From positions 62,001 to 126,000 of the forward strand of contig NZ_JAANYY010000004.1 of assembly GCF_012274265.1 (NCBI RefSeq): a stretch of DNA of 64,000 bases, in the 5' to 3' direction. The stretch's first letter is position 1. Every line of letters begins with the position of its first letter. Below the pieces are notes generated by a model. It saw nothing but the letters and a program-made list of their open reading frames with translations. It had not been told where the DNA came from and ran no database searches. Below are positions 1 through 62,846 of this stretch, piece by piece. The position numbers and the translations under genes were made by a program. The stretch comes from Sphingopyxis microcysteis (GTDB lineage Bacteria > Pseudomonadota > Alphaproteobacteria > Sphingomonadales > Sphingomonadaceae).

Positions 1-1459
1 CGGCTTCGCGCAGGTCCGAACAGATCGGGCCGTCGGGGGCGTTGAACTTGGGGTTGATCACCGATCCCTGACCGCCGAGCCAGCCCCAGTCGGCGCGATA
101 TTTGCCGTCGCCCTCGACCGCGAAAACGGGATCGAGCCCGTTCGCTTTGCACAGGTCGAAGTCGTCTTCGCCGTGATCGGGCGACATATGGACGAGCCCG
201 GTGCCGCTGTCGGTGGTGACGAAATCGCCGGGCAGGAAGGGACGCGGGCGCAGGTAGAAGTCGGCCAGCGGGGAATCGAGATTTATTGTTCCCCGGCGAA
301 CGCCGGGGTCCAGGGTGTCGTCCGCAAGGTTGTCGTCAGGCCGCCCTGGGCTCCGGCTTTCGCCGGAGAACAGCTTTGCCATCGGGTGGCGCGCGATGGT
401 GCCGGCGAGGTCGGAGCCGCGATACGTTTCCGGCTCGCCGTCTGCCTGCCAAGGATGCGCGTAATACTCTGCTTTCCCCAAGCCGAGGTCGCTCAGATCG
501 ACGTTGGCCGCTTGCCGGTTCAGTCTTGCAAGAACCGACTGCACCAGCGGCTCGGCGATCAGGAAACGCTTTCCGTGCCAGTCTAGGCCCGCCTCTTTCA
601 GCCGTCGATACACCTCAATCTGATGCTTCGTGCCTTCCGTTTCGGGCTCGAAACCAATGTGCGCATATTCAACCTCCGGCCCATAGGCGATCGCCTGATT
701 GACTGGGATCGTCCACGGGGTGGTCGTCCAGATGACAGCGTAAGCGCCCTTCAACTCTTCGATGGGCGAGTCCGTGATCTCGAACGCCACGTCGATCTGG
801 GTCGAGACGATATCCTCGTATTCGATCTCGGCCTCGGCGAGCGCGGTCTTTTCGACCGGCGACCACATCACCGGCTTGGCGCCGCGATAGAGCATGTCGT
901 TGGCGGCGAATTTGAGCAGCTCGCGCACGATGGTGGCCTCGGCCGCATAATCCATCGTCAGGTACGGATGGTCCCAGTCGCCGCCGATGCCGAGGCGCTT
1001 CAGCTGCTCGCGCTGGGTGTCGACCCAATGCTGCGCATAGGCGCGGCATTCGGCGCGGAATTCCTCGACCGGAACCTCGTCCTTGTTCAGCTTTTTCTTG
1101 CGATATTGCTCCTCGACCTTCCACTCGATCGGCAGGCCGTGGCAATCCCAGCCGGGAACGTAAGGCGCGTCCTTGCCCTTCAGCGTCTGGGTGCGGACGA
1201 CCATGTCCTTGAGGATATGGTTGAGCGCATGGCCGATGTGCATGTCGCCATTGGCGTAGGGCGGGCCGTCGTGGAGGATGAACTGGTCGCGGCCCTTGCG
1301 GCTGTCGCGAATCTGCCCCTCGAGATTGCCCTCGAGCCATTTCGCCAGAATCAGCGGCTCCTTCTGCGGCAGGCCGGCCTTCATCGGAAAGTCGGTCTTG
1401 GGCAGGAAGACGGTGTCGCGATAGTCGCGCTGTTCGGCGGTGGGCGTGCTGTCGGTCAT
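1..1459 (-). CDS. ileS: Isoleucyl-tRNA synthetase, N-terminal part (runs off window start)
   Basis: Class I aminoacyl-tRNA synthetase that charges tRNA-Ile in the cytoplasm. The reading frame is open from the ATG at 1459 to base 1, giving about 486 residues of a protein that normally has 900 or more; the C-terminal half lies outside the window. The class I HIGH signature is at residues 74-77, inside the family block PYANGDMHIGHALN, and the editing-domain block with GTGLVHMSPDHGEDDF follows further on. Residues about 363-392 (bases 283-373) are coded by a palindromic repeat inserted in frame, an addition within the editing-domain region (see findings). The gene is followed upstream by a repeat and then the GDPD gene on the same strand. 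Confidence 0.95.
   Translation of the reverse strand, partial: MTDSTPTAEQRDYRDTVFLPKTDFPMKAGLPQKEPLILAKWLEGNLEGQIRDSRKGRDQFILHDGPPYANGDMHIGHALNHILKDMVVRTQTLKGKDAPYVPGWDCHGLPIEWKVEEQYRKKKLNKDEVPVEEFRAECRAYAQHWVDTQREQLKRLGIGGDWDHPYLTMDYAAEATIVRELLKFAANDMLYRGAKPVMWSPVEKTALAEAEIEYEDIVSTQIDVAFEITDSPIEELKGAYAVIWTTTPWTIPVNQAIAYGPEVEYAHIGFEPETEGTKHQIEVYRRLKEAGLDWHGKRFLIAEPLVQSVLARLNRQAANVDLSDLGLGKAEYYAHPWQADGEPETYRGSDLAGTIARHPMAKLFSGESRSPGRPDDNLADDTLDPGVRRGTINLDSPLADFYLRPRPFLPGDFVTTDSGTGLVHMSPDHGEDDFDLCKANGLDPVFAVEGDGKYRADWGWLGGQGSVINPKFNAPDGPICSDLREA
288..371. repeat. Palindromic REP element inside the ileS coding frame
   Basis: Two 28-base arms (288-315 and 344-371) are inverted copies of each other matching at 24 of 28 positions, around a 28-base centre. 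Each arm is itself a hairpin with the core CCGGCGAA.GCCGG. The element keeps the ileS frame open and is translated as a polar stretch rich in D, G, R and P. Confidence 0.85.
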
Positions 1460-3707: not shown

Positions 3708-3832
3708 CCCCTCCCCTTCAGGGGAGGGGCAGCGAGACTTGCGAACTTGTTCGCTAGTCGCAGCGGGGTGGGCCGCGGACGCTGCGCAAGGCCGCTGGCC
3801 CCCACCCCAACCCCTCCCCTGAAGGGGAGGGG
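3708..3832. repeat. Palindromic repeat (CCCCTTCAGGGGAGG family), inverted pair
   Basis: The outer hairpins CTCCCCTTCAGGGGAG and CTCCCCTGAAGGGGAG are inverted copies at the two ends, with the spacer containing AGCGAGACTTG and a short stem-loop. The left end touches the ribF start and provides its ribosome-binding sequence. The same family is at 9609-9732 and 62688-62846. Confidence 0.85.
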
Positions 3833-9608: not shown

Positions 9609-9732
9609 CCCTCCCCTTCAGGGGAGGGCAGCGAGACTTGGCAGCTTGCTGCCTAGTCGCAGCGGGTGGGGGCCAGAGGTATTGCGCTACACCGCGAGCC
9701 CCCACCCCAACCCCTCCCCTGAAGGGGAGGGG
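9609..9732. repeat. Palindromic repeat (CCCCTTCAGGGGAGG family), inverted pair
   Basis: Begins CCCTCCCCTTCAGGGGAGGG and ends with the inverted hairpin CCCTCCCCTGAAGGGGAGGGG-like arm. The spacer AGCGAGACTTGGCAGCTTGC matches that of the 62.7 kb copy and resembles that of the 3.7 kb copy. Confidence 0.85.
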
Positions 9733-33963: not shown

Positions 33964-33967
33964 CAAT

Positions 33968-34070
33968 CGTCATCCCGGCGAAGGCCGGGATCTCACCATA
34001 ACGAACGGCCGCAACGGAGAGATCGTGTTGGGAGTCACGTGCCTCCCAACACCCTGCGCCGGGATGACGA
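33968..34070. repeat. Palindromic repeat (GTCATCCCGGCGAAGGCCGGGA family) carrying a nested hairpin
   Basis: Starts CGTCATCCCGGCGAAGGCCG and ends GCCGGGATGACG. Inside is a perfect 10-base stem GTGTTGGGAG/CTCCCAACAC (34025-34052) with loop TCACGTGC, the counterpart of the hairpin at 2737-2760. Confidence 0.85.
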
Positions 34071-34085
34071 TGACCGGTGGAGCGG

Positions 34086-61025: not shown

Positions 61026-61067
61026 GGGAGGGCGATGGCGGGGCGGCGCGGATTTGGCAAGAATATG

Positions 61068-61264
61068 ATCCTCCCTGTGGCGAAGCCATGGGGAGGGGGA
61101 GTGCAGGGTTGGATTGCCCCCGGCAATCCAAGTCCAGTCCGGGGGACTGGACGACCCCGCACTTTCGCGAAGCGAATGGTGGAGGGGCGACAACGTCTGA
61201 GCCAAAGCCCCTCCGTCAGCGCTTCGCGCTGCCACCTCCCCATCGCTACGCGACAGGGAGGATC
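61068..61264. repeat. Palindromic repeat (GATCCTCCCTGT family), long inverted pair
   Basis: The ends GATCCTCCCTGTGGCGAAGC and GCGACAGGGAGGATC are inverted, and inner parts repeat GGGGAGG..CCTCCCC and a GTCCAGTCC..GGACTGGAC hairpin. It makes up most of the gap before the nucleosidase gene. Confidence 0.78.
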
Positions 61265-61385: not shown

Positions 61386-62036
61386 ATGCCCAACCTCCTC
61401 ATCCTCGCCGCGCTCCCCGAAGAAGCCGAGTCCCTGTTCCCGAACGTCGGCACATCCGCCGCCGCCCCGATCCCCCTCCGCCGCCTCACCGCCCACGGTC
61501 ACGCTCTCACCATCGCCACCTGCGGGCTCGGCAAGGTCAACGCGGCGCTCGCCGTCGGCCTGTTCGGCGCCGACGCCGACCTGATCCTGATGACCGGCAC
61601 CTGCGGCGCGCTCGGCGCGGCACCGGGCGCGTACTGGATCGCCGAGGCGCTCCAGCATGACTATGGCGCCGCCCATCCCGGCGCCTTTCGCCGCTACCGC
61701 GCCGGAGACTGGCCGATGGGCGAGGCCGGGGCAGCACATTTCGCCGCGATGCCCGACCCCGGGCTCGGCCTGCCGCATGCCCGCATCGCCAGCGGCGACA
61801 GCTTCGTCGCCTGCCCCGATGCCGCCGCAGACCTCGCATCGCTCGGCGCGACGCTCGTCGATATGGAGGTCGGCGCGGTGGCGCAGGCGGCGGCGCGGCT
61901 GGGCAAGCCGTGGGCGGCGATCAAGGCGGTGACCGACGAAGCCAATGATGCCAGCGGCGGCGAATTTCAGGCGAATCTGGCGCGCGCAGCCCGCGCCGCT
62001 GCGGGGCAGATCGAACGGCTGGTGGCGATGCAGTGA
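61386..62036 (+). CDS. MTA/SAH nucleosidase
   Basis: A 216-residue phosphorylase-fold enzyme that cleaves methylthioadenosine or S-adenosylhomocysteine. The glycine-rich GTCGALGAAPGAY, the catalytic glutamate in LVDMEVGAVAQ and aspartate in KAVTDEAND are in family positions. A futalosine-hydrolase (MqnB) role is possible from homology but no menaquinone genes are nearby. Confidence 0.82.
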   Translation: MPNLLILAALPEEAESLFPNVGTSAAAPIPLRRLTAHGHALTIATCGLGKVNAALAVGLFGADADLILMTGTCGALGAAPGAYWIAEALQHDYGAAHPGAFRRYRAGDWPMGEAGAAHFAAMPDPGLGLPHARIASGDSFVACPDAAADLASLGATLVDMEVGAVAQAAARLGKPWAAIKAVTDEANDASGGEFQANLARAARAAAGQIERLVAMQ

Positions 62037-62687: not shown

Positions 62688-62846
62688 CCCCTCCCCTTCA
62701 GGGGAGGGGCAACGAAGACTTGGCAGCTTGCTGCCTAGTCGTAGTGGGGTGGGGGCCAGCGGCCATGGACAAGGCCGCTGGCCCCCACCCGCTGCGACTA
62801 ACGAACAAGTTCGTAAGTCTCGCTGCCCTCCCCTGAAGGGGAGGGC
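62688..62846. repeat. Palindromic repeat (CCCCTTCAGGGGAGG family), head-to-head pair
   Basis: Each half holds CCCTCCCCTTCAGGGGAGGG, then AGACTTG.. and the GTGGGGGCCAGCGGCC boundary; the right half is the inverse of the left. Third member of the family. It fills half of the 320-base gap 62573-62893, and nothing else is seen there. Confidence 0.85.

Follow-up and report, generated by a model that had tools for sequence, protein, structure and literature searches.

A palindromic element of a resident repeat family, in frame and probably tolerated within the CP1 editing domain of isoleucyl-tRNA synthetase in Sphingopyxis

What is a pair of palindromic hairpins doing inside the reading frame of ileS, an essential gene? 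The question is raised by the window analysed here, a stretch of 64,000 nucleotides of Sphingopyxis microcysteis (positions 62,001 to 126,000 of contig NZ_JAANYY010000004.1, contig C4 of the genome under study, G000). A preliminary description had placed at 288-371 an inverted pair of repetitive extragenic palindrome (REP) hairpins with 24 of 28 arm bases matching, and an ileS frame that stays open through them to give about 30 polar residues (363-392) in the editing-domain region; it had compared the element with the Rickettsia palindromic elements (RPEs). The presence of a palindromic, in-frame element in ileS is confirmed, with slightly different borders, and the comparison with RPEs stands for what is now seen as an in-frame REP-like dimer in IleS. 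The features concerned are the following.

1 to 1459, minus strand: ileS, isoleucyl-tRNA synthetase, 5' part (residues 1-486 of 1066), an open reading frame above the cut-off of NCBIfam TIGR00392; the gene continues beyond the window start
287 to 372, minus strand: REP-like dimer, in frame, coding for IleS residues 363-391 (approximately), where insert-free relatives have the Gly-Gly turn HPMxxL^GGFF (inverted repeat, fold, genome copies, relatives)
287 to 315, strand not assigned: left arm of the inverted pair (inverted-repeat search)
344 to 372, strand not assigned: right arm of the inverted pair (inverted-repeat search)
374 to 658, minus strand: hypervariable CP1 stretch adjoining the insert (about residues 268-362), with a third REP site inside it in two relatives (alignments)

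The host gene is a genuine ileS. Its minus-strand frame starts with ATG at 1459 and leaves the window, and the complete gene encodes 1066 amino acids (protein P0001). This product scores 743 bits against 621 required by the NCBIfam ileS equivalog model (TIGR00392), its fold agrees with solved IleRS structures, and it is identified as isoleucyl-tRNA synthetase by the curated ileS model. Among the matches listed, it is the only full-length one in G000, the next having 29% identity over residues 36-262. The two arms of the element are complementary at 25 of 29 positions (inverted-repeat score 17), and its RNA fold reaches −52.8 kcal/mol against a mean of −32.8 for shuffled sequences (z = −5.8), none of 200 shuffles being equally stable. 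It can be seen that the frame remains open through the element, which is inserted after a Leu at the Gly-Gly turn and lengthens the CP1 editing domain by about 29 residues, most of them polar, and that IleS is preserved to either side of the insert, as in a translated palindromic element of the Rickettsia type. Whether the insert forms a surface loop had been asked earlier; the AlphaFold model has a predicted local distance difference test (pLDDT) value below 50 at residues 369-388, so the extra residues would, by this prediction, form a disordered loop within an otherwise confident IleRS.

The element belongs to a family of repeats. A DNA search of G000 found eight further full-length copies with 73-82% identity, so that it is present in many copies, as CGTC-tagged REPs are. 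Like a CGTC-REP dimer, it consists of two inverted stem-loops placed head-to-head, and the family carries a short CCA tail after the stem (GCCCAGG / TCCAGG). The CGTC tag that terminates such REPs, often varied to TGTC or CCTC, was not found: the element starts with (C)TGTTC, and within the stretch examined CGTC precedes the stem in none of the eight other copies. It is therefore termed REP-like and not a CGTC-REP. Mobilisation by a resident REP-associated tyrosine transposase (RAYT) was considered and rejected, since the Y1_Tnp domain (PF01797) has no match in G000; it is present in 4 of 13 genomes searched.

Related ileS genes show the same site in its empty state. If all related IleS proteins had the segment on non-palindromic DNA, the hairpin could be chance codon use. 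On the contrary, 64 of the 74 Sphingopyxis genomes read lack the insert; their loop is short, HPMHALGGFFARPRPF or close to it, and in one of them (G012) it is longer by five residues (HPMQDRVSGPLAEFFARARPF). These empty sites, together with the eight copies elsewhere in the genome, identify the CP1 segment as a genuine insertion. The ten carriers are G000, G002, G063, G067, G069, G082, G092, G094, G096 and G100, with ileS interrupted by contig ends in G082 and G096. An additional carrier is the plasmid pMC4 of S. indica (L061). In this S. indica MC4 record, a 404-kb plasmid typed as conjugative, ileS has REPs at both the CP1 loop and the C-terminal loop described below, and its annotated neighbours are purE, dihydrofolate reductase, riboflavin kinase/FAD synthetase and lspA.

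Nor is the insertion specific to this lineage, a possibility that had been left open: different palindromes occupy the same spot in many genera. A protein search gave 38 matches including the query's own protein, some of them named Blastomonas or Sphingorhabdus by their sources; a long insert is present in all 34 in which the site motif was located, a proportion biased to carriers by the use of residues 352-412, the insert itself, as query. Eight of the database records (P0002-P0009) have the same insert type. In a survey of the family, matches were obtained in 195 of 199 genomes, four of them Sphingopyxis. Among the remaining 191, an insert at the same turn was found in 14 genomes of 12 genera, all from 43 low-scoring loci that were re-fetched (among these 43, L201 of G244 is cut at the site and L179 of G110 sits in a short open frame; L168, with an odd loop, and L174, with a single half REP, were counted as insert-free). 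The other 148 are without insert, 62 by reading and 86 scored as empty on the basis of a match ungapped across the site. The named records L212, L215 and L221 are likewise CP1 carriers.

By eye, the inserts form two unrelated groups, REP dimers of several types and CCCCTCCCC...GGGGAGGGG palindromes, also of several types. The latter kind fills the CP1 site in G002 and G100; in the window itself, palindromes of this kind lie at 3708-3832, 9609-9731 and 62689-62845, outside the open reading frames (ORFs) that pass the gene test described below. When 25 distinct inserts (L040, L120 and L164 were left out) were subjected to an inverted-repeat test, 20 outscored all of 200 shuffles. In 150 rows with the shorter loop, some genomes being represented twice, the inverted-repeat score never exceeded 8.

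The CP1 turn is not the only loop of IleS to be filled. The ileS gene of G000 has a second REP dimer near its C-terminus, outside the window (L302:2581-2643, G000:C4 60581-60643). This dimer is tagged with CGTC at its two ends and lies between SVHLLEWP..LP and the helix that follows ELIGRW; its product, too, is predicted to be disordered. In the 77 Sphingopyxis genomes with this region, the REP is intact in 26 (G000 included) and absent from 48 (12 judged by coordinates); in the rest, G094 has half a REP, G093 a broken frame and G086 is cut. The two inserts tend to occur together: 7 of the 9 CP1 carriers also have the C-terminal one, compared with 19 of the 61 other genomes (Fisher p = 0.011). 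In L221 and L232 a third site, within the variable CP1 stretch, is occupied as well, and L221, a metagenome-assembled Sphingobium with an IleS frame of 1109 amino acids, has REP-coded inserts at all three sites. All 26 intact Sphingopyxis C-terminal inserts show the REP peptide in the RHP... frame, as counted with a loose pattern including the variants PREGG, RHPVLD and RHPGPR. Nine resident dimers gave 18 orientation readings, of which 13 have frame 0 open, 8 frame 2 and 4 frame 1. The left arm is read in another frame in the database proteins P0009 and P0038. The use of frames hints at selection for the polar one, with common descent as an alternative.

Is ileS unusual in this respect? A census was made of 464 kb, namely the window and twenty stretches of 20 kb, using a gene test that combines an open frame with GC content at third codon positions (GC3) and that needs 60 open codons on either side, so that elements near gene ends are missed. 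There are 77 inverted repeats scoring at least 15, compared with one after block shuffling. Three of the 77 pass the test, and after inspection of Pfam domains only the ileS element remains within a real gene. The two others were taken as intergenic: 33966-34071 is placed where a DUF924 gene on the opposite strand begins, and 61067-61264 is upstream of the SBF-like transporter domain of its ORF. Ten of the ORFs over seven of the eight other copies were scanned; three have Pfam domains, each to one side of the element only, and none has domains flanking it on both sides, while over the remaining copy (L065) there is no ORF of at least 90 amino acids. The C-terminal REP peptide has 116 own-genome matches, and in the two long frames checked among them, L405 (CcmF-like) and L418 (thymidine kinase), the REP match is upstream of the domain.

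The results show a REP-like dimer of a resident family in frame in ileS CP1; the reading that we consider fairly probable is that it encodes a polar, predicted disordered and tolerated loop, with the history outlined next. A tolerated loop is the likeliest role of the insert, and it is likely that a predicted floppy loop of an essential enzyme has been invaded repeatedly without harm. Resident palindromes may enter many places, by a route that this scheme leaves unspecified, and selection would remove most of those landing in genes. Inserts in two or three loops of IleS could survive because these loops would tolerate an insert that is polar, free of stops and 3n bases long. An established insert might then be inherited vertically and also cross between species when short tracts of ileS recombine.

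Repeated insertion is suggested by the match between insert and host. In two of three cross-genome comparisons, the insert type agrees with the repeats resident in the host. The element of G069 is frequent in G069, G063 and G094 and was not found in G000 at an E value of 1e-5, and that of G210, looked for in three congeners with three different ileS elements, was detected in G210 alone. The distribution on a FastTree phylogeny of 158 IleS rows, from which the variable stretch and the insert had been removed, is scattered: the 28 CP1 carriers need at least 24 changes (mean 26.2 with shuffled labels, 25 of 200 shuffles being as low), and at least 17 once branches with support under 95 are collapsed. 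The C-terminal inserts need at least 16 changes against a shuffled mean of 21.8, and at least 8 with weak branches collapsed.

Several observations weigh against this reading. The tree was built from ileS itself. The host match is not exclusive, in that the G100 type, with 50 matches in G100, 34 in G000 and 8 in G002 (both strands, at most 40 candidates scored per genome), is frequent in G000, where the CP1 site holds another element, and scarce in the carrier G002. Three of the 25 inserts tested are not palindromic beyond chance (L172, L173 and L200), two more were surpassed by 1 and 2 of 200 shuffles, and 2 of the 26 C-terminal inserts have an inverted-repeat score of only 9. Near-neutrality of the insert is itself something we infer, and tolerance alone does not explain the frequent invasion of ileS. 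Finally, the flanks of the insert are alike across genera (IYN.L...WERALEFYARP; AKLF...SPLAEFF). Therefore, part of the carrier scatter probably reflects exchange of ileS tracts and not fresh insertion. Different palindromes and the host match, on the one hand, and shared flanks and variants, on the other, suggest that the pattern probably owes something both to recurrent insertion and to exchange of cassettes.

A stronger form of exchange would reduce fresh insertion to a rare event: one or a few ancient insertions may have spread between species as a short ileS cassette moved by homologous recombination, local copies later replacing the palindrome through gene conversion. Besides the common flanks, the co-occurrence of the CP1 and C-terminal inserts agrees with it, and so does the adjoining CP1 stretch, which looks exchanged or retained as old variants. 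Within Sphingopyxis this stretch has a mean identity of 30.5%, compared with 88.6% for its flanks (300 random pairs of 2485), and between genera it reaches 73-74% with flanks at 77-78% (L104 of genus g1 with L175 of g87; L140 of g59 with L143 of g98). However, conversion by homology is impossible between unrelated palindromes at one turn, three different elements are present in three genomes of genus g45, and insert-free loops of the carrier-like flank type HPMAD.F..SEFYTKPRPF exist (L166, L190 and L193). We regard such a history as possible, at rather low probability. Bolder, and doubtful, is the proposal that sphingomonad IleS is a dedicated palindrome sink, in which a hypervariable, recombining CP1 cassette would be kept diverse by a binding agent and resident REPs of unrelated families would be recruited time and again to supply two or three of its loops with new protein sequence.

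The insert might also be selected in its own right, through diversifying pressure on the CP1 face of IleRS (e.g. from a binding factor) or through tuning of editing, with REPs as raw material. The hypervariability of the neighbouring stretch in an otherwise 89% identical enzyme and the concentration of inserts in one gene point this way; predicted disorder, sequence variation between carriers and absence from most relatives read point the other way, and we find selection improbable. A role at the level of nucleic acid, in which a hairpin in ileS mRNA or DNA slows translation or alters mRNA stability or supercoiling, would fit the stable RNA fold and the palindromy retained in most inserts. Yet recent insertion alone explains that retention, and a mid-gene position in a minority of species does not suggest conserved control; such a role seems quite unlikely. 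Chance codon use or an assembly artefact is contradicted by the fold z-score, the eight other copies, the insert-free relatives, the shuffle tests and the same insert type in P0002-P0009.

Translated REPs as such are already known. Di Nocera et al. 2013 (PMC3733652) described, in the passages compared, GTAG- and CGTC-tagged REP dimers inside genes, where they code for 20 to 30 amino acids; the intragenic CGTC dimers are mostly head-to-head, a dedicated transposase for CGTC REPs was not found, different REPs are reported at about one site in recB of two Xanthomonas species, and a neutral placement in loops was suggested. The dimers of those passages resemble the present one in lying within real genes and in coding length. 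REP-bearing tRNA synthetases are named there for S. alaskensis and E. litoralis, with synthetase and site unspecified, and those passages do not include one ileS site with unrelated palindromes across genera and a second and a third loop. The RPEs, which the same paper cites as palindromes that are read in frame within protein-coding genes, share this property with the ileS element; they differ in belonging to other bacteria, in sequence and in occupying many host genes, whereas the intragenic copies found here sit in one gene. Bacterial interspersed mosaic elements and other extragenic REP pairs are likewise multicopy inverted pairs but lie between genes, unlike the ileS copy in its coding frame. 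No report of this ileS site was found in the open-licence papers searched. What is new is that unrelated palindromes have come to occupy the same few loops of a single essential gene again and again.

The finding touches two open questions, namely how REPs move without a dedicated transposase and whether palindromes can become protein. That a core enzyme should vary so strongly in part of its editing domain calls for explanation as well. In ileS of this family, filled and empty sites in sister species, different palindromes at one turn and related copies in the genomes tested provide natural replicates, by which the insertion route, the choice of target and tolerance become directly testable.
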